Shown here piece after piece: positions 38,045 through 56,893 of a stretch of 64,000 nucleotides of DNA (position 1 is its first letter; each line of letters starts with the position of its first letter). Made by a program: the position numbers and the translations under genes. The notes below the pieces were generated by a model. That model was not told where the DNA came from and did no database searches. It saw nothing but the letters and a program-made list of their open reading frames with translations. Source of the DNA: Bacteroidetes bacterium GWF2_35_48. Its GTDB lineage: Bacteria > Bacteroidota > Bacteroidia > Bacteroidales > GWF2-35-48. Location: contig MEOG01000122.1 in NCBI GenBank assembly GCA_001769125.1, positions 32,815 to 96,814 on the forward strand. Reading direction: 5' to 3'.

Positions 38045-38075
38045 GAGGCAGTTTTTAGAACTGCCTCTTTTTTTT
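38045..38075 (+). terminator. Terminator overlapping the hydE 3' end
   Basis: GAGGCAGTT-TTTA-GAACTGCCTC followed by a run of T, on the plus strand. The hydE stop codon (38055-38057) lies in the loop region, so the last hydE codons form half of this stem. Confidence 0.85.
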
Positions 38076-39140
38076 GAAATGCAGTGAATCTCCGTAATCC
38101 TGAGCAATCTCTTCTCCAGCAGAATTTACCACTTTTTTAATATACACTACGCTTTCTTCTTCATCCTGAAAAACTCCGGGTTTATTTTCATATAACATAT
38201 AATTATCACGGTATTTTAACGGAGTTAAATTCGGCATTAAAACATTCGCTCCTGCTAAAAGTCCCTTTTCTCGACCCTCCGGATCAATTGATTGAAGGGC
38301 GGTTGTAGAAGCAATATTAATGTCTTTCATCAGAATTCTCAGAATTGCGATCATTCTTAAAGATAAATCAAATCTGTCTTTAATTGGTAATAATGATTCA
38401 CGATATTGATACAATGGTGTGTCTTCATGCTCTATGTAGGGTCCCATTCCAACCATATCAATATCCAGATTTTTCATAAAAAGCAAATCATCTGCAAGAT
38501 TTTCAAAAGTCTGAAATGGCAGACCAATCATAACACCTGTTCCGGCTTGATATCCTATTCTTTTTAATACTTGAAGACATTTCAGGCGTGCTTCATAATC
38601 ATGAAGTTTATTATTTGGATGAAGTGTTCGATATAGCTCTCTGTCTGAACTTTCAATCCTAAGCAAATATCTTTGCGCTCCTGCATTGTACCATTCTCTG
38701 TATGTTTCCTCAGATTGCTCTCCCAATGATAGCGTAACACGAAATTGTTCTTCTGAAATATTTTGAATTTTTTCTAAAAGGCGGGTTATTCTCTTTGTAA
38801 AAGCAAAATTGCATAACTCGCCTGATTGAATTACAACACTTGAAAATTGGTTGGACTTTGCAAATCTTATTACTTCTACAACTTCTTCGTCAGGAATATT
38901 GTATCTTTTTGTATTATTATTTTCTGCTCTAATTCCGCAATAAAAACAGTTTTTTCCGCATATATTTGATAATTCAATAAGACCGCGAAGGTACACTTTT
39001 TTCCCGACAAATTGTTCTTTTACAGCGTTGGCTTTCTGCAATAAAACATCCTGCTCTTCTTTTGTTTTAACAGTGAGGAGTGTTACGATATCTTCCTTTG
39101 TGAGGTTTTCTTTTTCTACTATTTCTTGAATGGGAAGCAT
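38055..39140 (-). CDS. hydE: [FeFe] hydrogenase maturase HydE (radical SAM)
   Basis: Radical SAM enzyme that, after HydG, helps build the [2Fe] subcluster of the hydrogenase H-cluster. 361 residues with the AdoMet-cluster motif C61xxxC65xxC68 (ICGKNCFYCGIR), GELCNFAFTKRITRLLEKI, ESSDRELYRTLHP, and GVMIGLPFQTFENLADDLLFMKNLDIDMVGMGPYIEHEDTP, all typical of HydE. It follows hydF on the minus strand with a 58-bp spacer occupied by a 16-bp-stem hairpin. Required partners HydF (39199) and HydG (46170) are in the window. Confidence 0.96.
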   Translation of the reverse strand: MLPIQEIVEKENLTKEDIVTLLTVKTKEEQDVLLQKANAVKEQFVGKKVYLRGLIELSNICGKNCFYCGIRAENNNTKRYNIPDEEVVEVIRFAKSNQFSSVVIQSGELCNFAFTKRITRLLEKIQNISEEQFRVTLSLGEQSEETYREWYNAGAQRYLLRIESSDRELYRTLHPNNKLHDYEARLKCLQVLKRIGYQAGTGVMIGLPFQTFENLADDLLFMKNLDIDMVGMGPYIEHEDTPLYQYRESLLPIKDRFDLSLRMIAILRILMKDINIASTTALQSIDPEGREKGLLAGANVLMPNLTPLKYRDNYMLYENKPGVFQDEEESVVYIKKVVNSAGEEIAQDYGDSLHFKKKRQF

Positions 39141-39160: not shown

Positions 39161-39200
39161 AGTGTCAGCAAGAAAACTCGTGTTTTTTCTTGCTGACACT
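39161..39200 (-). other. 16-bp perfect hairpin between hydF and hydE
   Basis: AGTGTCAGCAAGAAAA (39161-39176) and its exact reverse complement (39185-39200) flank an 8-nt loop. It begins at the hydF stop codon (39199-39201) and ends 20 nt before the hydE ATG. No T run follows on the minus strand, so it is not a standard terminator; an intercistronic mRNA stability or translation element is likely. Confidence 0.8.
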
Positions 39201-40398
39201 AGGTGGAAAACGATGCCAGTGTTCTTTCATAAATGCCCTGGGTAAATGCAATCATCATTCCGTAATTGGTAACAGGAATTCCGGCATCAATAGCAGGTTT
39301 CAGGCGATTTAACACTTGCTTTTTGGTAAAAACACAACCCCCGCATTGTATTACCAGTGCATATTCTTTGATGTTATTTTTTAAATTTCCAAAACCGCTG
39401 ATAAATTCAAATTCCAGATTTTTTCCGGTAAATTTACTAAGCCAGTTGGGAATTTTATGCCTTCCTATATCATCGCAGCTCACATGATGTGTACAGCTTT
39501 CCAGAATTAAAATTTTATCTCCTTCTTTTAGATGAGATATTTTAGGTGTGCCAGCAAGATAGGCTTCAAAATTTCCGCGCAAACGTGCAAATAAAATACT
39601 GAAGCCAGTAAGAGGAATTTCTTTTGGAACTATTTTATCAATTTTCGCAAATGCCTGGCTGTCGGTAATGACAATCCGTGGTTTAATTTTTGTTTTTAAA
39701 AAATCTTCTAGCTCTGTTTCCTTAAGAACTACATTAATGCAATTATGATCCAGCACATCTCGAATGGCCATTACCTGTGGTAAAATCATTCTTCCATCCG
39801 GAGCTTCGCTGTCAATAGGTGTTACAAGTATAACAATATCTTTGTCATTGATCAATCCATCAAATAAGGCAATGTTCTGATATGAAGTCTGAGGTATTGT
39901 TAATTTCAGCAAGCCAACAACAGCATCCATATTCTCATTTTCGACAGAACTGAAGTCCAAAACATCTGCCTTACAAATAAAGTCTATTTCTTTCAAAGTA
40001 GATTTCTGAAGAGTTTGAATATCTTTTTTATTATGAATAATTAAAAAGGGTATTTCATACTCATTAAACATGCGGATCAGGTTGATTTCGTATTCTCCGA
40101 AATTATTTTCAGCTATTAAAAGTACTGCACAATCAACAATTTTAACAAGCTCCATTGTTTTACGAATCCTTTTTTCACCCAGAGCCCCGATATCATCAAT
40201 ACCGGCAGTATCTACAATAATTGCAGGACCAATTCCAAAAATTTCAATGGATTTTTTTACAGGATCAGTTGTAGTCCCGGCAACATCAGATACTATAGCA
40301 ACCTCAGAACCAGTAATTACATTGATAAAAGAACTTTTTCCGACATTTCTCCGACCGAAAATTCCTATATGTGGTTTTTGATCTTTTCCTTTGGGCAT
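39199..40398 (-). CDS. hydF: [FeFe] hydrogenase maturation GTPase HydF
   Basis: Scaffold GTPase that carries the [2Fe] precursor and delivers it to apo-HydA. 399 residues: GTPase domain with P-loop GRRNVGKS (~15-22), GTT switch (DVAGTTTDPV), DTAG (VDTAGIDD) and NKKD; a dimerisation domain; and a C-terminal [4Fe-4S] domain with C302xH304 and C352xxC355 (ESCTHHVSC, IQCGGC). First gene of the hydF-hydE unit. A palindromic array (40425-40500) lies in its 5' region, 26 bp before the start codon. Confidence 0.97.
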   Translation of the reverse strand: MPKGKDQKPHIGIFGRRNVGKSSFINVITGSEVAIVSDVAGTTTDPVKKSIEIFGIGPAIIVDTAGIDDIGALGEKRIRKTMELVKIVDCAVLLIAENNFGEYEINLIRMFNEYEIPFLIIHNKKDIQTLQKSTLKEIDFICKADVLDFSSVENENMDAVVGLLKLTIPQTSYQNIALFDGLINDKDIVILVTPIDSEAPDGRMILPQVMAIRDVLDHNCINVVLKETELEDFLKTKIKPRIVITDSQAFAKIDKIVPKEIPLTGFSILFARLRGNFEAYLAGTPKISHLKEGDKILILESCTHHVSCDDIGRHKIPNWLSKFTGKNLEFEFISGFGNLKNNIKEYALVIQCGGCVFTKKQVLNRLKPAIDAGIPVTNYGMMIAFTQGIYERTLASFST

Positions 40399-40424
40399 AG
40401 TAGTATATTTATTATTATTGACTG

Positions 40425-40500
40425 TATCATCGCCCCATGGGGCGATGTTACGGTCATATCATGGGGCGATGTTACGGTCATATCATGGAACGATTCTACA
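40425..40500 (-). repeat. Hydrogenase-island palindromic array upstream of hydF
   Basis: A perfect 20-bp palindrome CATCGCCCCATGGGGCGATG (40428-40447), then two further direct units at 24-bp steps (ATGGGGCGATGTTACGGTC and the diverged ATGGAACGATTCTACAGG). On the hydF strand the palindrome ends ~26 nt before the start codon. Related arrays lie at 49344-49416, 51413-51440 and 53184-53270. Confidence 0.85.
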
Positions 40501-40532
40501 GGCTACAAATTTATCAAAAGAAAATTCAAAAA

Positions 40533-40564
40533 TTTGCAACATAAATGGAATTATTTTATATTTG
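40533..40564 (+). promoter_or_regulatory. Promoter of the hydrogen-sensor operon
   Basis: TTTG (40533-40536), 20-bp spacer, TATATTTG (40557-40564), 71 bp ahead of the first gene at 40636 and just beyond the palindromic array. On the opposite strand CAAATTTA (40506-40513) reads TAAATTTG and may be the hydF -7 element. Confidence 0.65.
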
Positions 40565-40635
40565 AAGCTATTTAACATAGCAATTTTCTTATTTTAACTT
40601 ATTATAAGCCCAATAACCATTTAACATTTTCATTT

Positions 40636-41193
40636 ATGAAAATCAAAGGAACTGCTGTAAGATCAATAAATGACTTTATCCGTAAACGCTTTCCTGAAGA
40701 ATATGAAAAGTGGATAAGCTCCCTACCGGAAAGCTCCAGATATATTTTTCAAAACCCTATTTTTGTAACTAATTGGTATCCGCTCAATGAAGCCTGCATA
40801 ATTCCTACAGAAACTGCTGCAAAATTGTTTTTTGAAAATGACGTTATAAAAGCAGGATATGAATCGGGTAAGTACAGTGCCGAGTCTGCACTAAATGGAA
40901 TTTATAAGATTTTCATAAAAGTATCATCCCCAAATTTTATTATTAAGAGAGCAGGTATTGTTTTCGGTTCTTATTTTGAACCCAGCAATATTACTGTTGT
41001 TGAGAATCTATCAAAAAGTGCGGTTGTTCATATTTCTAATTTTCCGGAAATGAATATTGTTGTTGAACAAAGAATTCATGGCTGGATGTTTCAGGCAATT
41101 ACTATGGCTGGGGCTAAAAATCTTAAAATAGGTATAACACAATCTTTGACAAAAGGAAATGAAGTAACAGAGTACATTATTAATTGGGATTAA
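40636..41193 (+). CDS. Unrecognised small cytoplasmic protein of the sensor operon (V4R/DUF2378-like?)
   Basis: A 185-residue soluble protein with no signal peptide. The layout (helical N-terminus VRSINDFIRKRFPEEYEKWISSL, central GYESGKYSAESALNGIYKIF, then KRAGIVFGSYFEPSNITVVENLSKSAVVHISNF and a C-terminal EQRIHGWMFQAITMAGAKN) recalls the V4R/heme-NO-binding-like ligand domains and the myxobacterial DUF2378 family, but I am not certain. It contains a single Cys, so it is unlikely to bind a cluster alone. Its stop is 10 bp before the hydrogenase-like kinase gene and it follows a good promoter; a small-molecule sensor or partner of that kinase is the best guess. Confidence 0.5.
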   Translation: MKIKGTAVRSINDFIRKRFPEEYEKWISSLPESSRYIFQNPIFVTNWYPLNEACIIPTETAAKLFFENDVIKAGYESGKYSAESALNGIYKIFIKVSSPNFIIKRAGIVFGSYFEPSNITVVENLSKSAVVHISNFPEMNIVVEQRIHGWMFQAITMAGAKNLKIGITQSLTKGNEVTEYIINWD

Positions 41194-41203
41194 AAACATT
41201 GAA

Positions 41204-44200
41204 ATGGTAAACAAAGAATTAATTAAAATCATTGATGTTGATAAGGAAAAATGTGTAAACTGCCATGTTTGCATTAATGCATGCCCTGTAAAATATTGTA
41301 ATGACGGTAGCGGAGAATCCGTTACTGTAAACAAAAATCTCTGCATCGCTTGCGGGCACTGCCTTTCTGCATGTACGCACGATGCCCGTTATTATTTTGA
41401 TGATTTCGACCTTTTTATGAGTGATTTAAAAAAGGGAGAGAAAATTGCTTTAATTGTCGCACCATCTGTTGCTGCAAATTTTCCGGGAAAATTTTTACAG
41501 TTAAATGGATGGTTTAAAAGTATTGGAGTGGATGTTATTTTTGATGTCAGTTTTGGCGCAGAACTTACAGTTCCGTCTTATATCAATCATATTAAAAAAA
41601 ATAATCCCCAGACTGTAATTGCACAACCTTGTGCTGCAATTGTTACCTATATTGAAATTTTCAAACCTGAATTGATCAGTTTTCTTGCACCTGCTGATAG
41701 CCCCATGCTGCATACCATAAAAATGATTAAAACTTTTTACGAAGCATACAAAAACCACAAAATTGCTGTTATTTCTCCCTGTCTTGCCAAGAAAAGAGAA
41801 TTTGAAGAAACTGGTTTGGGTGAATACAATGTGTCTTATAAGTCTATTGATAAATATTTGAAAAATAATAATATCTCTTTAAATAAATTTGATAAAGTTG
41901 ATTACGATAATCCACCTGCTGAAAGAGCTGTCCTATTTTCCAGTCCTGGTGGTTTATTACAAACAGCAGAACGCTGGATTCCAGAAATTAGAAATAAAAC
42001 GAGAAAAATTGAAGGAATTCATACTATTTATGACTATTTGGACAATCTTCCCAGAATGATTCTGGAACGAAAATCTCCCTTGTTAGTGGATTGTCTGAAT
42101 TGCGAAAAAGGGTGCAATGGAGGACCTCTTACTCTTGCTAAGGATAAACCTGTTGATGAAATTGAATATTATATAAGCAAGAGAAATGAAGATATGCGGC
42201 AATATTATTCGAATCTCTCTTCTAAGGAAAATAAAGAAAATGTAAAATTAATTGAAGAAGAAATTAATAAATACTGGAAAGAAGGTCTCTATGACAGGGA
42301 ATATGAAAATCTTTCTGAAAATTTTAATTTAGATACACCAAACCCTTATGAACTTCAGGAAATTTATCGCAAAATGCATAAATATACTGAGGCTGATATT
42401 TATAATTGTTCCTCTTGTGGTTATGGGCGATGTGATAAAATGGCATTTGCTATTTTTAATGGTTTGAACAGACCTGAAAATTGTCATTTTTACTTGTCAT
42501 CAGAAGGTGAAATTGCGCATCGTGAAACAGAAGAGAGTCAGAAACATTTGCAGAATATTCTGAATACTATGATTGAGGGATTTCTTCAAATTGATAATAA
42601 AGTCAGACTGGTTGATGTAAACCCAGCACTTAAACAATTACTCAAAATAGATTCTTTTGAAGGAAAAACACTGTACGACTTTTTAAACGAAGACAATAAG
42701 AAAATTTTGAGTCAACAGATTGCTCTGCGCTCACAAAATAAAAACAGTACCTATGAATTAATGCTTACTGCCTCAGATGGCAACGAAGTATATTGTATTG
42801 TTAATGCTACTCCGCTTTTTGATAAACAAGGCGAAAAATCCGGATCATTCGCTATTTTAACAGATATTACAGATCGCAGAAAAGCAGAGATAGAACTTCA
42901 GAATTCACGGGATGAACTCGAAAGACGAGTTATAGAGCGAACACAGGAGTTATCTGAAATGGTTGAAGAATTAAAAGTTTCTAATGATGTGATTGAAACA
43001 TATAATCTGGAACTTGAAAATCTATCCATTGTTGCCAGCAAAACATACAATGGCGTTTTGATTATGGATCATGCCGGTATTCTTGAATGGTATAATCATG
43101 GCTATACGAACATGTTTGGCTATTCTTATGATGAGTATTTAATTAACAAGGGAAAAAGTTTTACAACAATTCTTACAGATCATTCTGCATCAGAAGCACT
43201 TGTTAAATGTACTTCAACAAAGCAAACGCTTATTTTCGAATCCCCCTGCCCTACAAAAAACAGAAGTTTTATCTGGGCACAAATTACCCTGACTCCGATT
43301 CTTGATGACGCAGGAGACATAACAAAGCTTGTTGCAATCTGTTCAGATATATCCGAACTAAAAGCGGCAGAAGAGGAAATTCATGTTCAGAACGAAGAAA
43401 TAACTGCACAAAGAGATTCTATTGAAGAAAGGGCAAGAGAACTAACAGAAGCACTGGATCAGTTACAGAAATCGCAGGAAAAACTAATTGAATCTGAAAA
43501 AATGGTCGCACTGGGTCAATTGATTTCTGGCGTTGCACATGAAATTAATACACCACTGGGTGCAATCCGTTCGTCTGTTGGAAATATATCAAACACCCTA
43601 CAGCAAATACTTACAAAATTGCCCGATTTTTTCAGAATGATAACAGAGACTGAAAAAAACGATTTCTTCATGCTTCTTGAAAAATCTATAGAAAATAAAC
43701 CTGCACTGACATCAAAAGAAGAAAGGACACATAAAAGAAAACTTGTCCATATTCTGGAAGAAAATAATATTTCAACCCCTGATGAATTTGCCGACACATT
43801 AGTAGACATGTGTATTTATGAAGATATTACTCCTTTCTTTGAGCTTTTGAAATCTAAAGAAAGTATTCAAATATTACAGATGGCATACAAACTTTCAGGA
43901 TTGTTGCGAAGCAGCCAGACCATTAATACTGCAGCAGACAGGGCGAGTAAAATTGTTTTCGCATTAAAAAACTTTGCGCATTACGACAACTCTGGAGAGA
44001 TGATCAAATCAGATATTATTAATGGCATTGAAACAATCCTTACTCTTTACTATAACCAATTAAAACATGGTGTTACAGTTGTAAGAAATTATGAGGAAAT
44101 TCCAATGATATTATGCTACCCCGATGAGCTCAATCAGGTCTGGACAAATTTGATTCACAATGCGCTTCAGGCGATGGAAAATAAAGGAACATTAACCATT

Positions 44201-44437
44201 GACGTTTACATTAAAAATGATAATCTTATTGTAAGTTTTACCGATTCTGGAAAAGGTATTCCTCCAGAAATACAGAACAAAATATTTAACCCGTTTTTTA
44301 CAACAAAACCTCAGGGAGAAGGTAGTGGGCTTGGCTTAGATATCGTACGACGAATAGTAGAAAAACATAAAGGAACGATTTCTTTTAACAGCGAACCAGG
44401 GAAAACAACATTTACAACAATCATGAGTGTTAATTAA
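41204..44437 (+). CDS. Sensory [FeFe]-hydrogenase-like protein fused to PAS and histidine kinase domains
   Basis: A 1077-residue soluble fusion. Residues 15-60: two [4Fe-4S] motifs (C17-C20-C23-C27; C47-C50-C53-C57). Residues ~75-320: hydrogenase H-domain with altered motifs: L1 AQPCAAI (Cys143), L2 SPCLAKK (Cys193), L3 CEKGCNGG (Cys300, Cys304). Four presumed H-cluster Cys are kept; the proton-relay Cys is Pro142. Residues ~394-430: a CxxCx4Cx16C FeS domain (Cys402, 405, 410, 427). PAS domains at ~445-560 and ~605-720, coiled coils, HisKA with His779 (SGVAHEINTPLG), and an HATPase with NLIHNALQAM and GSGLGLDIV. Read as an H2 or redox sensor kinase passing phosphate to the receivers that follow. 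Confidence 0.9.
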   Translation: MVNKELIKIIDVDKEKCVNCHVCINACPVKYCNDGSGESVTVNKNLCIACGHCLSACTHDARYYFDDFDLFMSDLKKGEKIALIVAPSVAANFPGKFLQLNGWFKSIGVDVIFDVSFGAELTVPSYINHIKKNNPQTVIAQPCAAIVTYIEIFKPELISFLAPADSPMLHTIKMIKTFYEAYKNHKIAVISPCLAKKREFEETGLGEYNVSYKSIDKYLKNNNISLNKFDKVDYDNPPAERAVLFSSPGGLLQTAERWIPEIRNKTRKIEGIHTIYDYLDNLPRMILERKSPLLVDCLNCEKGCNGGPLTLAKDKPVDEIEYYISKRNEDMRQYYSNLSSKENKENVKLIEEEINKYWKEGLYDREYENLSENFNLDTPNPYELQEIYRKMHKYTEADIYNCSSCGYGRCDKMAFAIFNGLNRPENCHFYLSSEGEIAHRETEESQKHLQNILNTMIEGFLQIDNKVRLVDVNPALKQLLKIDSFEGKTLYDFLNEDNKKILSQQIALRSQNKNSTYELMLTASDGNEVYCIVNATPLFDKQGEKSGSFAILTDITDRRKAEIELQNSRDELERRVIERTQELSEMVEELKVSNDVIETYNLELENLSIVASKTYNGVLIMDHAGILEWYNHGYTNMFGYSYDEYLINKGKSFTTILTDHSASEALVKCTSTKQTLIFESPCPTKNRSFIWAQITLTPILDDAGDITKLVAICSDISELKAAEEEIHVQNEEITAQRDSIEERARELTEALDQLQKSQEKLIESEKMVALGQLISGVAHEINTPLGAIRSSVGNISNTLQQILTKLPDFFRMITETEKNDFFMLLEKSIENKPALTSKEERTHKRKLVHILEENNISTPDEFADTLVDMCIYEDITPFFELLKSKESIQILQMAYKLSGLLRSSQTINTAADRASKIVFALKNFAHYDNSGEMIKSDIINGIETILTLYYNQLKHGVTVVRNYEEIPMILCYPDELNQVWTNLIHNALQAMENKGTLTIDVYIKNDNLIVSFTDSGKGIPPEIQNKIFNPFFTTKPQGEGSGLGLDIVRRIVEKHKGTISFNSEPGKTTFTTIMSVN

Positions 44438-44448
44438 AAAAACAATTT

Positions 44449-44844
44449 ATGTCAAAAAATGTAATTTTGTGTGTTGATGATGAAAAAATAATTCTAGATA
44501 GTCTGAAAACACAATTAAAAGAAAAATTTGGAAATGATTTTTCGTATGAAACTGCAGAGAATGCAAATGATGCAGAAGAAGTGCTGAATGAGCTTACTAC
44601 AGAAGGATGCAATGTTCTTATTATTGTTTCAGATTGGCTTATGCCAGGGATTAAGGGGGATGAATTTCTGATTAATATTCATAAGAAATTTCCCGGCATT
44701 GTTAAAATAATGCTAACAGGACAGGCAAAAGAAGAAGCTATAGAACGTGCAGTAAAAGAAGCAAATCTGCATAAATGCCTACATAAGCCATGGACAGCAG
44801 ATGAATTATTTGAAACAATAAAAAGCGGTATTCATAAATTATGA
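44449..44844 (+). CDS. Single-domain response regulator
   Basis: A 131-residue stand-alone receiver: ILCVDDEKIILDSLK with acidic pair at 10-11, phosphorylation site Asp62 (IIVSDWLMPGIKGDEF), Thr (MLTGQAK) and Lys (LHKPW). It starts 11 bp after the hydrogenase-like kinase and overlaps the next gene by 4 bp (ATGA), so it is translationally coupled with the receiver-phosphatase. Without an output domain it probably relays phosphate or allosterically controls another protein. Confidence 0.93.
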   Translation: MSKNVILCVDDEKIILDSLKTQLKEKFGNDFSYETAENANDAEEVLNELTTEGCNVLIIVSDWLMPGIKGDEFLINIHKKFPGIVKIMLTGQAKEEAIERAVKEANLHKCLHKPWTADELFETIKSGIHKL

Positions 44845-46169
44845 AAAAGAAATCTGTAATTCTCTGTATTGATGATGAAAAAATGGTTCTCAATAGTTTG
44901 AAAATTGAACTAAAGGAGAACTTCGGAGAACATCATAATATTGAATTAACTGAAAACCCGGAAGAGGCTGTAGAGATTTTCAACGAGCTTGTAGAAAGCG
45001 GTGTTGAAATACCCTTAATTATTTCTGATTATGTGATGCCAAATATTAAGGGCGATGAATTGCTTAAACGATTTCATGAAATTTCTCCAAAAACTCTAAA
45101 AATAATGCTGACAGGGCAAGCCACTACTGAAGGGGTTACCAATGCAGTAAACTGGGCGCGTCTTTACAGGTATATTTCCAAACCTTGGGTTGCTGAAGAT
45201 CTTGCAATGACCGTGCGTGAAGCAATCAAGAGTTATTTTCAAGATCAAAAACTTGAAAAACAAAATGAAGAATTAAAACAAATCAATGAAGAACTAGAAC
45301 AACGCGTTTACGACCGAACTCTCGAAATTTCAGAAAAAAATATCATTCTTGAAATTCAAAAAAATGAATTAGGGATAAGAAATAAAAATATAACAGACAG
45401 CATTATTGCTGCAAAGCGCATACAACAAGCATTGCTCCCTTCAGAAAATATTTTAAAAACTTATTTCTCCGACTATTTTATATTTTTTAAACCAAAAGAC
45501 ATTGTCAGTGGAGATTTCTACTGGGTAAGGCAATTTGAATCTTTAATCATAATTGCTGTTGCAGATTGTACAGGACACGGAGTACCCGGAGCGTTGATGA
45601 GTATTTTAGGAATTTCATCTTTAAATGAAATAATCAACAATTATTCCGATGAAGAGATACGACAGATAAAAGCCTGCGACATTTTAAACAGGTTAAAAGA
45701 AAAAATCATCAGTGCCTTTATGCACACGAATAAAGCGAATGAAAATAAAGAAGGCATGGACATTGCCTTGTGCATTATTGATTTGAATAAAAATTCGCTT
45801 CAATATGCAGGTGCTTTTAATCCTCTTTGTATTGTTAGGTTTGATGATTATGCTTCAGGTAGTTTTCATGAAGTTGTTGCCGATAAAATGCCGGTAGGTT
45901 ATCATACTGATGAAAAAACAAATTTCAAAAACAATATTATTTCTTTGTCTAAAGGCGATATAATATATCTTTTTTCTGATGGCTATGCAGATCAGTTTGG
46001 GGGCGCTTACAATAAAAAGTTTATGAAAAAGAAATTCAGAGAGCTTCTTTCATTTATTTCGAATAAACCCCTAAATGAACAACAAGAGATTCTTGAACTT
46101 ACTTTGACTGAATGGATGGGAGAATTTCCTCAGATTGATGATATTCTTGTTACCGGGATAAGGCTCTAA
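44841..46169 (+). CDS. Receiver-SpoIIE phosphatase (RsbU-like)
   Basis: A 442-residue signalling phosphatase: receiver domain 1-125 with Asp63 (LIISDYVMPNIKGDEL), a coiled-coil linker ~130-195 (QNEELKQINEELEQRVYDRTLE), and a SpoIIE/PP2C domain ~200-442 with AAKRIQQALLPS, DIVSGDFYWV (metal Asp), VADCTGHGVPGALMS and LFSDGYADQFGG. Likely dephosphorylates a Ser/Thr-phosphorylated anti-sigma antagonist or similar when the receiver is phosphorylated. No STAS or anti-sigma gene is in the window. The last gene of the sensor operon; its stop codon directly abuts that of convergent hydG. Confidence 0.92.
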   Translation: MKKKSVILCIDDEKMVLNSLKIELKENFGEHHNIELTENPEEAVEIFNELVESGVEIPLIISDYVMPNIKGDELLKRFHEISPKTLKIMLTGQATTEGVTNAVNWARLYRYISKPWVAEDLAMTVREAIKSYFQDQKLEKQNEELKQINEELEQRVYDRTLEISEKNIILEIQKNELGIRNKNITDSIIAAKRIQQALLPSENILKTYFSDYFIFFKPKDIVSGDFYWVRQFESLIIIAVADCTGHGVPGALMSILGISSLNEIINNYSDEEIRQIKACDILNRLKEKIISAFMHTNKANENKEGMDIALCIIDLNKNSLQYAGAFNPLCIVRFDDYASGSFHEVVADKMPVGYHTDEKTNFKNNIISLSKGDIIYLFSDGYADQFGGAYNKKFMKKKFRELLSFISNKPLNEQQEILELTLTEWMGEFPQIDDILVTGIRL

Positions 46170-47612
46170 TTAATAATACAAATCCCGTTTTCCCTGTTTT
46201 AATAATTCCAATTTATTTTTTAAACCCGATTTTATTTCGTCATTTAACTGCTCAATATTTTTTTCAATTACATGCCAGCCTTTATTTTTTGTAGCTTCTG
46301 GAGCATAGTCCAGCAGATATTCTGCGAGCGTAAGAATTGCATTGGGAGTACAATAGCGTTTTATAAACCCAGGTACTGAAAACTCCATAAAATGTTCTCC
46401 TGTTCTTCCCAAGCGATAACAAGCGGTACAAAAAGAAGGTAACATGTCTTGTTGGAGCAACTCATCAATGATTTCATTCAATGACCTGTCATCGTTAATA
46501 CGAAATTGTCCTTTGTTTAAGTTCTGTTCCTGATTTAAATTTTTTGAATAGCTTCCCAATTCAAGTTTTGTTCCACCATCAATTTGTGAAACGCCAAATT
46601 GTATGACTTCATTTCTGAGTTTTGCAGGTTCACGCGCTGTAAGAATCATCCCTGTATAAGGAACTGCAAGCCTTAAAATGGCAATCAGCTTAATAAAATC
46701 CTCATCTCTTACAAAATATTTTTCTCCCATTTGAAGCATTGAAGCGTCTTTAATTCTTGGAAATGAAATTGTATGCGGACCCACATTGTAACATGCTTCC
46801 AGATGATTCGAATGTCGTACCAATGCTAAAACTTCATATCTCCAATCGTATAATCCAAACAATGCGCCAATCCCGACATCATCCAGACCAGCTTCCTGAG
46901 CACGGTCAAGAGCTGTTAATCTGTAAGAAAAATCTGCTTTTTTTCCACGCAGGTGATAGGTTTTGTATGCCTCCGAATTATAGGTTTCCTGAAAAATCTG
47001 ATATGTGCCAATACCTGATTCTTTGATAATTTTAAAACCATCAATATCCAAAGGTGCTGCATTGATATTTACACGCCTGATTTCTCCATTATTTTTTTTA
47101 ACAGAATAGGCTAATTTAACAGTGTGTACAATGTATTCCGGGTTGTATTGTTCGTGATCTCCATAAACCAAGACAAGGCGCTTTTGTCCATTATCTTCAA
47201 GCGCTTTAATTTCATTCACAATTTCTTCATCATTGAGTGTTTTTCTCTCAGCATTTGTGTTAGAAGACCTAAACCCGCAATACGTGCAATTATTTGAACA
47301 TTTATTTCCGATATAAAGGGGCGCAAAAAGAACAATTCTGTTTCCGTAAATTGTACGTTTTAACTCGCGTGCGCCTTCTTTGATTTCATTAATTAATTCT
47401 GGATCTGTAGCATTAATAAGCACTGCAACTTCTTCAAGGGTTAAGCGTTTTTTGGAAAGAGATTTTGTGATAATTTCTCTTACTCTTTCTTTGCTTGATT
47501 TTGTTGTATTTATATATTCCCATATTTCTTCCGGATCAATGAATGGTCTCATTGCTTCATCGGCAATTTTATATTTTTCAGGTGTGAATTTCATAGGATT
47601 TTCTTGTGGCAA
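46170..47612 (-). CDS. hydG: [FeFe] hydrogenase maturase HydG (tyrosine lyase)
   Basis: Radical SAM tyrosine lyase that makes the CO and CN ligands and an Fe(CO)2(CN) synthon for the H-cluster. 480 residues: N-terminal radical SAM cluster C105xxxC109xxC112 (NKCSNNCTYCGFRSSN), ITAREP-type barrel segments, and the C-terminal auxiliary-cluster motif with CTAC and a distant Cys (FCTACYRLGRTGEHFMEF ... YCTPNA). Full length for HydG. It is the last gene of the minus-strand hydrogenase train, 18 bp after the receiver-kinase. The start may be Met1 or Met7 (47594). Confidence 0.97.
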   Translation of the reverse strand: MPQENPMKFTPEKYKIADEAMRPFIDPEEIWEYINTTKSSKERVREIITKSLSKKRLTLEEVAVLINATDPELINEIKEGARELKRTIYGNRIVLFAPLYIGNKCSNNCTYCGFRSSNTNAERKTLNDEEIVNEIKALEDNGQKRLVLVYGDHEQYNPEYIVHTVKLAYSVKKNNGEIRRVNINAAPLDIDGFKIIKESGIGTYQIFQETYNSEAYKTYHLRGKKADFSYRLTALDRAQEAGLDDVGIGALFGLYDWRYEVLALVRHSNHLEACYNVGPHTISFPRIKDASMLQMGEKYFVRDEDFIKLIAILRLAVPYTGMILTAREPAKLRNEVIQFGVSQIDGGTKLELGSYSKNLNQEQNLNKGQFRINDDRSLNEIIDELLQQDMLPSFCTACYRLGRTGEHFMEFSVPGFIKRYCTPNAILTLAEYLLDYAPEATKNKGWHVIEKNIEQLNDEIKSGLKNKLELLKQGKRDLYY

Positions 47613-47630: not shown

Positions 47631-48749
47631 TTATATGGGGAGAGATATAGTAAATATACTTCCCTCTCCCGGTTTACTTGAGACATCAATTTTTCCATTG
47701 TACAATTCTACTATTTTTTTTACAATTGAAAGCCCGAGACCTGTTCCGGAAATGTTACGTGTGTTTACATTTTTTATTCTTACAAAATCATGAAACAATT
47801 TTGCAAGATCATCTGTACTCATTCCAATACCTGTATCTTCAACTACAATATTAATAAAAGAATCTTGATCTTTTACATTTATATTAACATGTCCTCCTTC
47901 TTTATTGTATTTAATAGCATTTGAGATCAGATTATTAAAAATAATTTCGATTTCTTGCCTGTCTGCCTTTAGTCTCAATGATTCCGGAGCATCGAAATAC
48001 AATTTTACATTTTTTTGTAATGCAAGCGGTTCTAATGTATCAATAGAAAATTTTGCAATTTCGTAAATATCTACTTCTGCCAACTCACGGGTTTTTTCTC
48101 CAGATTCAATTTTCGTCAAATCCAGTAAATCGCTTATCAGATGCCGCATTCCCTTCATTCGTATCAAAGAACGATCAATCATCTCCATATAATCTTCAAC
48201 ATTATCTCCTACCTGTTTTTCCTGTAACATACGCAGGTAGCCTTCTACAGCATTAATTGGAGACTTCAATTCATGAGACAAAACAGAAAGAAACTGAAAT
48301 TTTACCTGCTTGTCTTCATCATTCATTTTTTGTGTCATCCTTTTAAGAAAAAGATGCTTTGTAATGCCTTCCATAGCAGCTTTCAGTTCCGTTGGAGTAA
48401 ATGGTTTCGGAACAAAATTATAGGCTCCATTTTTTGTTGATTTAACTGCAAGTTCAAGCGAGGCATAGCTTGTAATCATCATCACCATAGCATCGTACTT
48501 GTTTTTGTTGATATACTCAAGCACTTCCACTCCCTCAATACCGGGCAGTTTATTATCAAGGAGAATAATATCCATCTGCTCTTTGTTTATGATTTCAATT
48601 GCTTCCTCCCCTGTAGCAGCTTCAATCAGGTCGAAACAAAAATCTTCATCCATAAAGGGAAATCCCACACTGAAATTTTTTAGTATCCTTATGATTCCTG
48701 AACGGATTCCGGGTTCATCGTCTACTACTAATACTTTGAGCTTTTTCAT
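47631..48749 (-). CDS. Receiver-histidine kinase hybrid
   Basis: A 372-residue cytoplasmic protein: N-terminal receiver (1-130) with Asp65 (IILLDNKLPGIEG), a short helix, HisKA dimerisation domain with His159 (FLSVLSHELKSPINAVEGYL), and HATPase domain (~265-372) with NLISNAIKYNKEG, EDTGIGMS and GTGLGLSIVKKIVELYNGKI. No transmembrane part, so its signal is likely phosphate from a partner kinase, such as the hydrogenase-like one at 49410-51395. Last signalling gene before hydG. Confidence 0.94.
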   Translation of the reverse strand: MKKLKVLVVDDEPGIRSGIIRILKNFSVGFPFMDEDFCFDLIEAATGEEAIEIINKEQMDIILLDNKLPGIEGVEVLEYINKNKYDAMVMMITSYASLELAVKSTKNGAYNFVPKPFTPTELKAAMEGITKHLFLKRMTQKMNDEDKQVKFQFLSVLSHELKSPINAVEGYLRMLQEKQVGDNVEDYMEMIDRSLIRMKGMRHLISDLLDLTKIESGEKTRELAEVDIYEIAKFSIDTLEPLALQKNVKLYFDAPESLRLKADRQEIEIIFNNLISNAIKYNKEGGHVNINVKDQDSFINIVVEDTGIGMSTDDLAKLFHDFVRIKNVNTRNISGTGLGLSIVKKIVELYNGKIDVSSKPGEGSIFTISLPI

Positions 48750-48913: not shown

Positions 48914-49309
48914 TTATAGTTTCAATAATTTATTAATTTCTTTGTGCAGTTGATCCTTTCGGATACCTTTCTCCATATACGTGTCGGCTTTTATCCACTG
49001 CCGTTCATTTTGGGAGTCTAAACCAAAAACAAGACCTGTTTCTGCTGTTACTGCTGTTGCGATAATAACAGGAACATCAGGGTATTTTTTCTTGAGCTTA
49101 TAGCTTAGAATAAAACCACTGTCTTTGTTATCCATCATTAAGTCGAAAATGGCAAGATCAGGTTTATTTTTTTCAAGATAATCCTCTGCCTCCTTCTGAC
49201 TTTGAACAGAGCAAACATTAAATCCGAAGCTCTTCACATTTGCTTCCATCACACTGAGCTGATCGGTATCGTCGTCAGCGATCAGTATTATTTTTTCTTT
49301 TGTTTTCAT
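48914..49309 (-). CDS. Single-domain response regulator
   Basis: A 131-residue receiver: IILIADDDTDQLSVMEANVKSFG with the acidic cluster at 12-14, phosphorylation site Asp56 (LAIFDLMMDNKDSGF), Thr (IATAVTAETG) and a late Lys. The loop region SQNERQWIKADTYMEKGIRKDQL is longer than in standard receivers and resembles that of the second receiver in the protein at 55789-56727. It lies between the hydrogenase-like kinase and the receiver-kinase, so a phosphorelay intermediate is likely. Confidence 0.88.
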   Translation of the reverse strand: MKTKEKIILIADDDTDQLSVMEANVKSFGFNVCSVQSQKEAEDYLEKNKPDLAIFDLMMDNKDSGFILSYKLKKKYPDVPVIIATAVTAETGLVFGLDSQNERQWIKADTYMEKGIRKDQLHKEINKLLKL

Positions 49310-49343: not shown

Positions 49344-49416
49344 GTATCATCGCCCCATGGGGCGATGTTACGGTCTCATATGGCGATGTTACAATCCCAT
49401 GGGACGATGTTACAGT
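49344..49416 (-). repeat. Hydrogenase-island palindromic array upstream of the receiver gene
   Basis: The perfect 20-bp palindrome lies at 49348-49367, followed by two more half units (CATATGGCGATGTTACAATC and CCATGGGACGATGTTACAGTC). On the minus strand the array supplies the TAA stop of the upstream kinase gene (49410-49412) and ends 34 nt before the receiver start. Confidence 0.85.
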
Positions 49417-51395
49417 CTAGTGGGTATTTTTATTTTAAAACTTGTTCCTGTTTGTCCGCATTGAGGGTCACAATTTGATGTTATATTTATATCTCCTTTA
49501 TGCATTTTTACAATTCCATAGCAAGTGGGAAGACCTAATCCTGTTCCTTTTCCTGGAGATTTTGTTGTGAAAAACGGTGTGAAAATCTTATCCATATTTT
49601 CTTTAGAGATTCCGGTTCCGGTATCGCTGATTGTAAAAATCACAGTATTGTTTTCCTGCTCAATTTTAATTTTCAGTATTCCCCCATCGGGCATTGCCTC
49701 AATTGAATTTTTGATAAGATTCGATAATACCTGTACCATTTGTTCTTTATCGAGTTCTGCTCCTGAATTGCTCAAAATAATTTCTTTTTCGAGTTTAATA
49801 TTTTGGGGGATTATTATTGCATGAAGACTTGTGTTGATCAATTCATTCAAATCTACAGGTTCATATTTTACCTGATTGTTTCGTGCAAAATTTAACAAAC
49901 CTCCCACGATATTTTTGCATCTCCCGGCTTGTTCTGCTATTAGCTGTAAGTCTTTTTTTGTTTGTGAGTCAATGGGACATTCTTCTAATAAAATATTGCT
50001 ATACATAATAACAACACCCAGCGGATTGTTGAGTTCATGAGCGATACCGGCAGACAATTGTCCCATGTGTGCAAGCTTTTCTGATTGCTTAAGTGCCTGC
50101 TGAATGGAAACAAGCTTTTCATTTGAAACCGCAAGTTCTTTAACAGAATTATGAAGTTTGCTTATTGTAAAAGGTAGGCACATTTCATTTTCAGCAAGAC
50201 CCTTGTGAATAGCTAAGGCATGTTCAAAGCAGGTATCATAACCACACGCCCCACAATTCAGGTGGTCTTCTTTTGTATATTTCCCCATCTCTTTGAGGAT
50301 TTTTTCAAGTTCCTCAGATGTTGCAATTAAAATGCGCTGGTCGTTTTCTTTAAACTCTTGTGACAAATCCAATGAATAATATTTTTCGACATCCTGCCTC
50401 CATCCGCATAAATCAGCATTTTTTAATTTGTTATAAACATAATTTCTTATTGCTGCTCTTTTTGAATAACGGTCGTTTTGAGATGACATTCCAACACCCA
50501 TGATACATCCTTCGCAACAAAGCAATTCTATATGTTGCGACTTTATCAGTCCTGCATCAAATTCTTTTATTGCATCTGCAAAACGAACGCGTCCGTCTGC
50601 GACAATTATATCTCCTTCCAGAATACTATCCTCCAGATCTACTGTTTGCAACAAACCCCTTGAAACGGGAAAAATAGCGCCTTTTCCTCCAACCGGAGAA
50701 TTGAATTCAAGAGGACTTGTGTTTTCATAATTTATGCCAAGCCGTGTAAATAACTGGCGAAGTTCACGGAAAGTAAGCACTTCATTGATTTCATCCGATT
50801 CTTCTTTTTTTGCAATACAGGGACCAATAAAAACAACGGGTGTTTCTTTTCCGTATTTTTTCCGAATTACTTTCGCTGTTGCAATCATTGGCGAAACATA
50901 AGGAACCAGATTTTTAACAAGGTGCGGATAATATTTTTCTACAAAATTTACAATAGCAGGACAGTCGGATGAAATAAAGTGCATACCCGATTCGCTTTGT
51001 ATGAACTCTCTGTATTTACGAGCAACAAGATCGGCACCAAAAGCAACTTCATGCACCCATTCAAACCCAATTGCTTTTATCATTCCCACAAGAATTCTGT
51101 AATCATCGAATTCGATAAATTCAGCAGGAAAACTTGGTGCAATGCACACGGCAACTTTTTCTCCTTTTTGAATTAAGGCAAGGACACTGTCTACAGAATT
51201 ATAAAAAACCTTAGCATCCTGACTGCAAACTTTAACGCAATTGCCGCATCCAATACAACGAGTTTCTATTACCTGAGCCTGTCCGTTTTCAATTTTGATT
51301 GCTTTAGCAGGACATTCCCGAACACAGGTATAGCATATTTTACAACGTTCTTTTATCGTTGAAACAAGAGGTGATATGTTGACTTTTCTTGACAT
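49410..51395 (-). CDS. Sensory [FeFe]-hydrogenase-like histidine kinase
   Basis: A 661-residue soluble fusion without PAS. Residues 15-60: two ferredoxin-type clusters (C18-C21-C24-C28; C47-C50-C53-C57). Residues ~75-320: H-domain with L1 SSDCPAI (Cys145, Asp144 in place of the proton-relay Cys), L2 GPCIAKK (Cys193) and L3 CCEGCIMG (Cys293, Cys297). A FeS domain follows (C381-C384-C389-C406), then HisKA with His453 (SAGIAHELNNPLG) and HATPase with NLIKNSIEAMPDG and GTGLGLPTCYG. It follows hydA by 41 bp in the same train, implying co-production with the catalytic enzyme it may monitor. Confidence 0.9.
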   Translation of the reverse strand: MSRKVNISPLVSTIKERCKICYTCVRECPAKAIKIENGQAQVIETRCIGCGNCVKVCSQDAKVFYNSVDSVLALIQKGEKVAVCIAPSFPAEFIEFDDYRILVGMIKAIGFEWVHEVAFGADLVARKYREFIQSESGMHFISSDCPAIVNFVEKYYPHLVKNLVPYVSPMIATAKVIRKKYGKETPVVFIGPCIAKKEESDEINEVLTFRELRQLFTRLGINYENTSPLEFNSPVGGKGAIFPVSRGLLQTVDLEDSILEGDIIVADGRVRFADAIKEFDAGLIKSQHIELLCCEGCIMGVGMSSQNDRYSKRAAIRNYVYNKLKNADLCGWRQDVEKYYSLDLSQEFKENDQRILIATSEELEKILKEMGKYTKEDHLNCGACGYDTCFEHALAIHKGLAENEMCLPFTISKLHNSVKELAVSNEKLVSIQQALKQSEKLAHMGQLSAGIAHELNNPLGVVIMYSNILLEECPIDSQTKKDLQLIAEQAGRCKNIVGGLLNFARNNQVKYEPVDLNELINTSLHAIIIPQNIKLEKEIILSNSGAELDKEQMVQVLSNLIKNSIEAMPDGGILKIKIEQENNTVIFTISDTGTGISKENMDKIFTPFFTTKSPGKGTGLGLPTCYGIVKMHKGDINITSNCDPQCGQTGTSFKIKIPTRL

Positions 51396-51412: not shown

Positions 51413-51440
51413 GTAGCATCGCCCCATGGGGCGATGTTAC
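51413..51440 (-). repeat. Hydrogenase-island palindrome between hydA and the sensor kinase
   Basis: A single 28-bp near-perfect palindrome, core CATCGCCCCATGGGGCGATG at 51417-51436. On the minus strand it starts at the hydA stop codon (TAA, 51437-51439) and ends 17 nt before the kinase ATG. Confidence 0.85.
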
Positions 51441-53164
51441 AATAATACAATACGTTTTTTATAACATGTGTGTAATAATTTATGGCTCAAATGTCCATTG
51501 GGTTTGCCGAGAAATTTCTGATACAGTTCTAATATCTGAGGATTTTTATGAGATACCCTGAGTGCTTCATTTTTGTCAATTTCATACAATGCTTTAATGC
51601 GGGCATAAATAGAATTTTTATCTGCTCCTATATGTTGTCCTCCACCTGCAATGCATCCTCCGGGGCAGCTCATCACTTCAACGAAATGAATATCTTTTCT
51701 TCCTTCAGATATTTCTTTAAGTAAAGAAGCTGCGTTACCAAGACCATTGACAACTGCTACTCCCAGCTCAAGAGAATCTATCTTGATTTTTGAATGTTTA
51801 ACACCGCTTAAACCGCGCACTTCTTCAAATTCAAGTTTTTCAAGTTCGTTCCCTGTAATCATAGAATAGGCAGTACGTAATGCAGCTTCCATTACACCCC
51901 CGGTGGCGCCAAAAATTTTACCAGCAGAAGATCTTGTTCCCAGAGGAGAATCTGTATCTTCCGGTTCTAAATTTTTAAAATCAATACCATAAAGGCGAAT
52001 TAATTTTCCCAATTCACGAGTGGTTAAAACAGCGTCTACGTCTGATATTCCTTCCTGTGTCATTTCTTCACGTTGTGCTTCAAATTTTTTAGCAGTACAT
52101 GGCATGAGTGAAACTGAAAATATTTTTTCAGGTTTTATATTTTCAATTTTAGAATAATAATGTTTAATTATTGAACCCATCATTTGCTGAGGAGATTTGC
52201 AGGTTGAAACATTCGACAGCATTTCAGGCCAGAATTCTTCAACGTATTTAACCCATGCAGGACAACAGCTTGTAAACATTGGTATCGGATCACTGTTTTT
52301 TGTGATTCGTTCAATTAATTCTGTCGCTTCTTCCATAATGGTTAAATCGGCAGTAAAACTAGTATCGAAAACCCTGTTGAAGCCCACTTTCCGCAATGCT
52401 GCATTCAAAATACCATTCATATCTTTTTCGGGTTCCAGTCCGAATTCTTCAGCAATAGATACCGTAATAGCCGGAGCATATTGAGCGACGACTGTTAATT
52501 CAGGATTTTGCAATGCTTCTATTACAATACTGAGATGAGATTTTTCTGCAATGGCTCCTGTAGGGCAAACCATGAGACACTGACCACAGTTTACACAAGA
52601 AGAAGTATTCAGTCCCTTATTAAAAGCAGGTGCTACAATTGTTTTACTCCCTCGCAAAATAAAGTCAATCGCAGAGACGCCAATTGTTTCTTCGCAAACT
52701 CTTACGCAGCGTCCACAAAGAATACATTTATCCGGGTCGCAAACAATACTTTGTCCGGAATAATCTATGCTATGATTATTCTTTACTCCTGTTATTCTTC
52801 TATGTCTTACATCCAGCTCATCAGACAAATTTTGTAATTCACAGTTTTTATTCCGTACACAATACAAACAATCGTCGGGGTGGTTTGAAAGAAGCAATTC
52901 GACAATGGTTTTCCGGGCATTGATAACTCTCGGAGAATGACTAAGTAGTTCCATTCCATCTTCAACAGGATAAGAACAGGATGTAATGAGCCTACCACTG
53001 TTTACATGTTCTACAAGGCACATTCTGCACGCTCCAGCCGGAAACTTATCCTTCATATAACACAGTGTTGGAATTTTAATTCCATTTCTTTCGAGCACAT
53101 CAAGGATCATTTCGCCTTTTTCTGCCTGAACAGGTTTGGTATTTATTTTTATATTTAGTTTCAT
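51437..53164 (-). CDS. hydA: [FeFe] hydrogenase catalytic subunit HydA
   Basis: Catalytic subunit interconverting H+ and H2. 575 residues: [2Fe-2S] domain (Cys35, 46, 49, 63), His-Cys [4Fe-4S] (HPDDCLYCVRNKNC, ~95-108), two [4Fe-4S] (C147-C150-C153-C157; C190-C193-C196-C200), and a canonical H-domain: L1 TSCCPAW (298-304), L2 MPCTAKK (354-360), L3 MSCPGGCIAGGG (498-509). All H-cluster ligands and the proton-relay Cys300 are present, so it should be active. The operon with HydB and HydC marks the trimeric NAD- and ferredoxin-linked, electron-bifurcating type. It ends at ~575 residues, without the extra C-terminal [2Fe-2S] domain of the longest HydA forms. Confidence 0.97.
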   Translation of the reverse strand: MKLNIKINTKPVQAEKGEMILDVLERNGIKIPTLCYMKDKFPAGACRMCLVEHVNSGRLITSCSYPVEDGMELLSHSPRVINARKTIVELLLSNHPDDCLYCVRNKNCELQNLSDELDVRHRRITGVKNNHSIDYSGQSIVCDPDKCILCGRCVRVCEETIGVSAIDFILRGSKTIVAPAFNKGLNTSSCVNCGQCLMVCPTGAIAEKSHLSIVIEALQNPELTVVAQYAPAITVSIAEEFGLEPEKDMNGILNAALRKVGFNRVFDTSFTADLTIMEEATELIERITKNSDPIPMFTSCCPAWVKYVEEFWPEMLSNVSTCKSPQQMMGSIIKHYYSKIENIKPEKIFSVSLMPCTAKKFEAQREEMTQEGISDVDAVLTTRELGKLIRLYGIDFKNLEPEDTDSPLGTRSSAGKIFGATGGVMEAALRTAYSMITGNELEKLEFEEVRGLSGVKHSKIKIDSLELGVAVVNGLGNAASLLKEISEGRKDIHFVEVMSCPGGCIAGGGQHIGADKNSIYARIKALYEIDKNEALRVSHKNPQILELYQKFLGKPNGHLSHKLLHTCYKKRIVLL

Positions 53165-53183
53165 ATTATTATTATTATTATCT

Positions 53184-53270
53184 GTAGAATCGCCCCATGG
53201 AGCAATTTTACAGTAGATTACATGGGGCGATTTTACAGTAGATTACATGGGACGATTTTACAGTAGATTA
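53184..53270 (-). repeat. Hydrogenase-island array between hydB and hydA
   Basis: Three direct units at 25-bp steps (CATGGAGCAATTTTACAGT, CATGGGGCGATTTTACAGT, CATGGGACGATTTTACAGT) preceded by the inverted half GTAGAATCGCCCCATGG. It begins a few nt after the hydB stop and ends 19 nt before the hydA ATG. The T-rich variant differs from the other three arrays. Confidence 0.85.
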
Positions 53271-53272
53271 TA

Positions 53273-55219: not shown

Positions 55220-55683
55220 GATAACTCCTCCCTGTTTCTATACGATTCGACAATTTCTTTTAAGCTATCTACAGTTACTTTTGCATGAAATTCTCCATTT
55301 ATTGCAATTACAGGAGCAAGACCGCATGCGCCAATACAAGCGACAACCTCTATACTGAATAAGTTATCTCTGGATGTTTGCCCTGCTTTAATTTTCAGAT
55401 ATTTTTCAAGTTCATTAAGAACAGTGGATGAACCCAACACATGACAAGCAGTACCCCTGCACACCTGAATATTGTATTTCCCTTTGGGTTGAAAGCGAAA
55501 CTGGTTGTAAAATGTTGCAACTCCATAAATTTTACTGGTAGGAAGATGCAGATGGTTTCCCACTTCTACTATTGCTGTTTCTGACAGAAACCCTTCTGCT
55601 TCCTGAATTTCCTGAAGTATAGGAATAAGGCTGTCGTGGCAGGCATTTTTATATTCTTTCAATATTAAATCTACTTTTTCCAT
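55216..55683 (-). CDS. hydC: Hydrogenase [2Fe-2S] subunit HydC (NuoE-like)
   Basis: Small electron-transfer subunit of HydABC, 155 residues from the ATG at 55683. Thioredoxin-like [2Fe-2S] fold with CRGTACHVLGS and CIGACGLAP (four Cys ligands), PTSKIYGVATFYNQFRFQPKGKYNIQVC and the helical N-terminus SLIPILQEIQEAEGFLSETAIVEVGNHLHLP, all as in NuoE. The frame stays open to 55776, but the extra 31 residues look like a translated leader and NuoE proteins normally begin at this point. Its stop overlaps the hydB start (ATGA), indicating translational coupling. Confidence 0.95.
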   Translation of the reverse strand: MEKVDLILKEYKNACHDSLIPILQEIQEAEGFLSETAIVEVGNHLHLPTSKIYGVATFYNQFRFQPKGKYNIQVCRGTACHVLGSSTVLNELEKYLKIKAGQTSRDNLFSIEVVACIGACGLAPVIAINGEFHAKVTVDSLKEIVESYRNREELS

Positions 55684-55788
55684 TTCATTACTTTTTAAGG
55701 CTAGATTTAAAAACTTCCCTTTAACGGACGTTTGAAGCAATCTGATAATATAAACCAGATTGCTTCTTAAATCCACATTGTTAATTTT

Positions 55789-56727: not shown

Positions 56728-56749
56728 TTTTTCAATTGAACTTCTGAGA

Positions 56750-56757
56750 CAAAAGTA
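56750..56757 (-). promoter_or_regulatory. Promoter element of the hydCBA gene train
   Basis: Minus-strand TACTTTTG matches TAnnTTTG 22 bp before the REC-REC start. A TTTC near 56781-56778 is one base off the -33 box at 20-bp spacing. Confidence 0.45.
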
Positions 56758-56893
56758 CATTGTCGCCATACCTCTTTGAAAGGGTATTTTGTAGGGATTT
56801 TTATCAGTACTTTTAGGAATGTTATACAACAAAAACCAGTACTTTTACGCAATGTATTTTGCGTTTTCAGGAAAGAAAAAGCCGAAAAATAAT

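Follow-up and report, generated by a model that had tools for sequence, protein, structure and literature searches.

The question raised by this locus is what a hydrogenase-like domain does when it is joined, in a single polypeptide, to a complete histidine kinase. The locus lies on contig MEOG01000122.1 of Bacteroidetes bacterium GWF2_35_48, within a stretch of 64,000 nucleotides that we call the window, and the gene in question (the focal gene) is as follows.

41204..44437, forward strand: focal sensor kinase, 1077 amino acids (aa), an open frame with an ATG start, assigned by Pfam, motifs, alignment and a fold model

We hold with moderate confidence that its product acts in the cytoplasm as a sensor histidine kinase and receives its input from an [FeFe]-hydrogenase domain (H-domain) that is matured but slow, and that an H2 or redox signal passes via PAS domains to receivers and a SpoIIE phosphatase. 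The H2 binding and low turnover ascribed here to the H-domain are predictions from its sequence.

An earlier reading made without database searches (the sequence-only reading) had described one 1077-residue frame uniting ferredoxin clusters, an H-domain, an iron-sulphur (FeS) domain, two PAS domains and a kinase with His779, and both the open reading frame (ORF) and the Pfam matches agree with this. The domain order is two [4Fe-4S] motifs (Fer4 cysteines 17/20/23/27 and 47/50/53/57), the H-domain (Fe_hyd_lg_C, PF02906, residues 80-308, 2.6e-27), an FeS domain (PF04060, residues 400-428; C402-x2-C405-x4-C410-x16-C427), PAS1 (448-557), a coiled coil, PAS2 (approximately 616-712), a dimerization and histidine phosphotransfer (DHp) region with a long insert, in which HisKA starts at residue 770, and HATPase_c (973-1071, 4.2e-25). 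Pfam finds no MCPsignal domain in this protein. The kinase boxes are complete: the H-box with His779, the N-box from 982, G1 from 1014, the F-box from 1028 and G2 from 1038. The phospho-acceptor histidine, these N/G1/F/G2 boxes and the receivers encoded in the same operon identify a two-component sensor kinase, while the H-domain match, the four cubane cysteines and the fold place the N-terminal part in the PF02906 superfamily. The two [4Fe-4S] clusters, the Cx2Cx4Cx16C motif, the PAS domains and the lack of C299 correspond to the group C (M2f) layout as it has been defined (PMC8163306).

The fold was predicted with AlphaFold2 for residues 1-440, using an alignment with 44 relatives. The model has a mean predicted local distance difference test score (pLDDT) of 94.6 and matches the solved [FeFe]-hydrogenases CbA5H, DdH, TmHydA and CpI with Z scores of 30-34 over approximately 310-365 residues, at a root-mean-square deviation of 2.5-3.0 A, which confirms the fold. 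Sensory enzymes were not represented among the solved-structure matches to the focal protein.

The same 440 residues served as the query for the family. Relatives at 52-65% identity occur in approximately 18/247 genomes of the order, and in 5/395 genomes of a sample of the phylum, not counting the focal genome itself. On sequence grounds a chance frame is excluded, because this N-terminal part has relatives at such identity in many genomes. A scan of named genomes gave 80 family loci, and the family extends over Bacteroidota, Ignavibacteriota, Spirochaetota, Planctomycetota, Fibrobacterota, Bacillota, Thermodesulfobacteriota, Acidobacteriota, Riflebacteria, Hydrogenedentota and Auribacterota. 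Cultivated organisms with the family include Desulfoluna limicola, Plebeiobacterium sediminum and Clostridium sp. ZS2-4. The focal gene was not found in the genus-mate G090. Some family genes contain internal stops (L014, L020 and one further copy in G029), and those of L044, L020/L052 and L055 are broken by in-frame stops or frameshifts at differing places, which suggests either repeated decay of the sensor or assembly errors.

The window also encodes a second H-domain kinase, of 661 aa and C1-like, on the opposite strand, which is absent from the sequence-only reading; its paralog family shares only 27-30% identity with the focal H-domain. In H-domain trees, where group C1 is represented by this 661-aa histidine kinase family beside hydABC and neither named TmHydS, TamHydS or HydDB references nor NARF-like sequences are included, the focal family forms a single clade (99 by the Shimodaira-Hasegawa-like approximate likelihood ratio test, SH-aLRT; 100/100 in a second tree), apart from HydA, from a shorter type of approximately 480 aa and from the C1-like clade. 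A topology that joins the focal protein to the C1-like kinases was rejected by the approximately unbiased (AU) test (p-AU 2.5e-53). Judged from these trees, the focal H-domain sits in a clade made up mainly of methyl-accepting chemotaxis protein (MCP) and SpoIIE fusions, apart from the other, C1-like sensor kinase of this locus.

The residues that would surround the H-cluster support the sensory assignment. The cysteines expected to bind the cluster, C143, C193, C300 and C304, are kept, as claimed earlier and as both motif scan and alignment agree. Alignment with the HydA encoded in the window likewise upholds the claim that the proton-relay cysteine is replaced by proline and the L2 methionine by serine: Pro142 aligns with its Cys300 (CpI C299) and Ser191 with its L2 Met (CpI M353). 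The L3 methionine (CpI M497), absent from the earlier account, is exchanged as well, to Leu298. In a census of 95 aligned family members, each of the four cubane cysteines is present in 94-95/95 and the lysine equivalent to K358 in 95/95; in CpI, this lysine contacts a diiron cyanide. The family residues are Pro (93/95) at the C299 site, Ser (94/95) at the M353 site and Leu (94/95) at the M497 site, and Cys297 and His170 are further invariant, clade-specific positions. The C1-like clade has Asp at the C299 site in 13 of 16 members, its pocket being Asp/Gly/Leu versus the Pro/Ser/Leu of the focal clade.

Such exchanges are ordinary for putative sensory hydrogenases and, together with the family-wide conservation of the H-cluster ligands, uphold the sensory type proposed before. 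In sensory enzymes, C299 is replaced by or kept as Ala (43%), Cys (17%), Pro (10%) or Ser (10%), and M353 by Gly (51%), Ser (32%) or Thr (17%) (PMC10055695); Leu at the M497 site is found in TamHydS (PMC8163306). Since TmHydS and TamHydS lack these pocket residues and still bind an active H-cluster (PMC10055695, PMC8163306), the exchanges would not by themselves indicate a dead site, with CpI M497L as a warning that is weighed below. Asp at C299 is the sole exchange tolerated in prototypical enzymes (PMC10055695). Because the C1-like sensor has Asp and the focal one Pro at this site, the two sensors of the cluster may differ in proton transfer.

What the clade is connected to varies widely. 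Among its 93 tree members, Pfam assigns 57 MCP, 20 SpoIIE, 6 kinase and one cut SpoIIE-type output, and 9 have none or an unassigned one, so that one clade holds kinase, chemotaxis and phosphatase linkages. The tree requires at least 8 output changes in all; the kinase label changes four times on the best tree, while the well-supported branches alone require one change. From the focal protein, the shortest tree paths lead to SpoIIE fusions of Bacteroidota and Ignavibacteria. Compared with one SpoIIE fusion, it is homologous through PAS1, the coiled coil and PAS2 (41% over 324 aa), and continues thereafter into the kinase. Because the homology ends after PAS2, where the kinase replaces the rest, the kinase is probably a secondary output swap within the MCP/SpoIIE clade.

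Is the H-domain matured? At the curated cut-off, and with genomes G406 and G638 each counted once, HydG is present in 17/23, 40/50 and 12/17 family genomes (69/90). This co-occurrence alone says little, because nearly all such genomes also have a catalytic HydA. In G406 and G638, however, the family sensor is the only PF02906 protein, even at E 0.001. G638 (GWA2_30_7), a genome of uncertain completeness, has intact hydE, hydF and hydG that are 55, 67 and 69% identical to those of the window. In G406, which is 100% complete, hydE and hydG belong to the operon of the sensor, and hydF lies on a different contig. We did not accept G406 as clean proof of H-cluster maturation, since its HydG has CTAG for CTAC in the CX2CX22C motif and so lacks the second cysteine. 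At its end this HydG (8877-10619 of L156; loci L073/L156) also carries a TEEKCHL repeat in approximately ten copies. In L141, a metagenome-assembled genome of Melioribacteraceae, hydG and hydE directly follow an MCP-type sensor. Taken together, G638, G406 and L141 favour a matured H-cluster in the family, short of proof.

The surroundings of the focal gene are needed for both the maturation and the output of the sensor, and are listed here.

38055..39140, reverse strand: HydE-like radical SAM maturase (Radical_SAM match, position in the cluster, similarity to HydE of other loci)
39199..40398, reverse strand: HydF maturase (Pfam HydF dimer/tetramer domains; TIGR03918, 472 bits)
40399..40635, no strand: intergenic region of 237 bp from which hydF and the sensor operon diverge; it contains a 20-bp palindrome (40428-40447) and a tandem repeat of 24 bp
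40636..41193, forward strand: first gene of the sensor operon, 185 aa (ORF call)
44449..44844, forward strand: single-domain receiver, 131 aa, 11 nt after the kinase (Response_reg, 4.1e-17)
44841..46169, forward strand: receiver-SpoIIE (PP2C-type) phosphatase, 442 aa (Response_reg, 3.5e-13; SpoIIE, 3.7e-16)
46170..47612, reverse strand: HydG maturase (Radical_SAM and BATS; TIGR03955, 494 bits; CX3CX2C and CX2CX22C present)
47631..48749, reverse strand: receiver-histidine kinase, kept beside the C1-like sensor in other genomes (Pfam)
48914..49309, reverse strand: receiver, kept beside the C1-like sensor in other genomes (Pfam)
49410..51395, reverse strand: second sensor, 661 aa, C1-like, with H-domain, FeS domain and histidine kinase and no PAS (Pfam, tree, alignment)
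51437..56832, reverse strand: hydA, hydB and hydC, bifurcating-type group A3, and a double receiver at 55789-56832 (Pfam)

The focal gene is the second of a tight operon of four genes on the forward strand, in which the receiver-SpoIIE frame overlaps the preceding receiver frame by 4 nt. The operon is flanked by the divergent hydF and hydE and by the convergent hydG, and past hydG follow the receiver-kinase, the receiver, the 661-aa H-domain kinase and hydABC. The order hydCBA, 661-aa sensor, receiver and receiver-kinase is kept in 5 of the 6 relatives from the order that were examined, with hydG further along in 3 of them; the focal operon was not present at these clusters. Because relatives keep the cluster order without it, the focal operon looks inserted into a standard hyd cluster. 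Its 185-aa first gene has no Pfam or NCBIfam match and no homolog among the retrieved loci, and past hydABC a 689-aa frame (57154-59223, reverse strand) has no Pfam match.

Several intergenic gaps between genes of the hyd cluster (40428-40488, 49348-49409, 51417-51436 and 53188-53260) contain the palindrome CATCGCCCCATGGGGCGATG or its half-sites, with 10 half-site matches versus 0.5 expected. Outside the cluster, in approximately 380 kb sampled, there are one exact and one imperfect copy, both inside ORFs with SpoIIE domains. We considered CATCGCCCCATGGGGCGATG as a dedicated operator and did not retain it: it is enriched in the cluster gaps, but with copies elsewhere a dispersed repeat is as likely.

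Along the signal path, a G406 protein (48.7% over 312/318 aa) is alone among the retrieved sequences in matching the kinase module over its full length, and the best outside match of the receivers (54% for the receiver of the SpoIIE protein) lies in the G406 sensor operon. Both are encoded directly downstream of the G406 H-domain sensor. That two distant genomes keep this set next to an H-domain sensor supports the pairing of kinase and receivers. Of the route from kinase to receivers proposed by the sequence-only reading, the intact proteins, the common operon and the co-conservation in G406 thus stand, and phosphotransfer is the predicted step. As for the phosphatase, the neighbouring SpoIIE domain was considered as a split-off twin of the fused ones and rejected, since within the relatives' genomes a fused copy is not its best match. 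SpoIIE domains are plentiful in these genomes, and the phosphatase signalling set of the window genome is unusually large.

The main alternative concerns the metal site. Cubane cysteines are also kept in H-domain relatives with [4Fe-4S] alone, and are no proof of a diiron site. The focal H-domain may hold [4Fe-4S] only, and sense the redox state of ferredoxin/NADH or O2 instead of H2, with the kinase and phosphatase output unchanged. We regard this as rather unlikely, but several observations agree with it and weigh against a matured, H2-responsive sensor: the near-invariant Pro and Leu at the proton-relay and M497 sites, the location of most family members away from hyd genes, and the motif cysteine lost from HydG in the lone-sensor genome G406. 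Moreover, the CpI variant M497L, which is the family state here, is impaired in [2Fe] insertion (PMC10055695), and in C1 proteins of Hydrogenedentota the authors hardly found H-cluster motifs (PMC11406978). Conservation of the ligands and of the K358-equivalent lysine across at least ten phyla speaks for the complete cluster, as does the adjacency of three sensors (window, G406 and L141) to maturase genes, and TmHydS and TamHydS have a working H-cluster without the same residues (PMC10055695, PMC8163306). G638 likewise has intact hydEFG and no other H-domain protein, a point reduced by its uncertain completeness. Also to be set against the proposed sensor are internal stops in a few family genes and, on its output side, an adjacent SpoIIE domain that is not specially close to the relatives' fused SpoIIE domains, in a 6-Mb genome with at least 65 SpoIIE matches at E <= 1e-10. 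Because of these last two points, the phosphatase step is weaker than the kinase-receiver step, operon position and receiver conservation being its sole grounds.

The remaining alternatives accept or discard the sensor as a whole. That it is an ordinary HydDB group C1 histidine kinase-linked sensory hydrogenase, and nothing more, appears improbable. C1 is defined by its histidine kinase linkage (PMC5037454), a kinase is fused to the focal H-domain, and the gene lies near group A3 genes, as C1 often does (PMC11406978, PMC7768429); however, the 100/100 support for the MCP/SpoIIE clade, the AU rejection of a joint clade with C1-like kinases including the other cluster sensor, and the Pro/Ser/Leu pocket versus Asp/Gly/Leu all separate it from that group. 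We give hardly any credence to the view that the gene is dispensable or decaying and has been kept through hitch-hiking with the hyd genes. The internal stops in some relatives and the lack of the gene in G090 would fit such decay, but here the frame is intact, as are the boxes of the kinase, the receivers and the motifs of the phosphatase, the genes are spaced as tightly as in an operon, and the H-domain is strongly conserved.

For the preferred reading, a sensor kinase with a matured H-domain, the following chain of events can be proposed. The state of the H-cluster would be set by H2 or by the ferredoxin pool, whose redox state would reach it through the two N-terminal [4Fe-4S] clusters. 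Changes in the unit of H-domain and FeS domain would then, to judge from the domain order, arrive at the DHp helix by way of PAS1, the coiled coil and PAS2. Since the C-terminal cluster of TamHydS is not reduced by H2 (PMC13104023), the coupling of the H-cluster to PAS is no less likely to be conformational than redox. His779 would be phosphorylated and its phosphate transferred to the adjacent receivers, for which motifs and operon structure are at hand. The receiver of the SpoIIE protein would in turn switch the PP2C-type phosphatase, whose target is probably an anti-sigma or STAS-type partner; none was seen here.

A wider hypothesis, possible but offered as tentative, is that two H-cluster sensors of this locus, the focal one and the C1-type kinase with Asp at the proton-relay site, differ in how well they transfer protons, respond to H2 or redox at two different thresholds and so control one hydrogenase. 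The focal one would represent a widespread module with its own pocket (Pro-Cys / Ser-Pro-Cys / Cys-Leu-x-Cys) that evolution has combined with chemotaxis receptors, with phosphatases or with kinases.

The idea of sensory [FeFe]-hydrogenases has been around for years, with few direct physiological data behind it (PMC8924675). With an H-domain and a complete kinase in one chain, the question of H2 signalling becomes reducible to a phosphorylation assay on one protein. The sequence-only reading had called such a fusion little described, and this cannot be maintained: HydDB already names a histidine kinase-linked group C1 (PMC5037454), and kinase-domain fusions have been published (PMC11406978). 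Such hydrogenases are known as a kind (PMC5037454, PMC11406978), and "undescribed kind" is too strong.

HydDB names its putative groups by what the H-domain is linked to, a kinase in C1, chemotaxis in C2 and a phosphatase in C3 (PMC5037454), and the focal protein can be compared with each. Like C1, it combines an H-domain with a histidine kinase, and a group A3 hydrogenase is encoded nearby (PMC5037454; in Petrimonas mucosa, PMC7768429), but the C1-like protein of this locus is the one at 49410-51395, and the focal protein has Pro/Ser, not Asp/Gly, at the C299/M353 sites. It resembles C2 in that 57/93 members of its clade carry an MCP signalling domain, although it has itself a PAS-PAS-kinase arrangement and no MCP. 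As to C3, 20 clade members are fused to SpoIIE, and the focal operon encodes a receiver-SpoIIE protein; here, however, the phosphatase is not fused but is a separate protein to which the signal would pass via a receiver, and its SpoIIE domain shows no special closeness to the fused ones. As this clade shows, names given to sensory hydrogenases after their output do not track the descent of the H-domain. TmHydS (group C, M2f) and TamHydS (group D, M2e) have the same two [4Fe-4S] clusters, H-domain and Cx2Cx4Cx16C motif, lack C299 and have a small residue at M353, and TmHydS also has PAS (PMC8163306, PMC13104023). The pocket is Ala/Gly/Ser in TmHydS, and TamHydS has Ser at M353 and Leu at M497; a fused kinase is described for neither. 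What is new in this locus, compared with these systems, is an H-domain of the MCP/SpoIIE-type clade, with a pocket signature of its own, joined to a kinase and encoded beside a C1-type sensor kinase.

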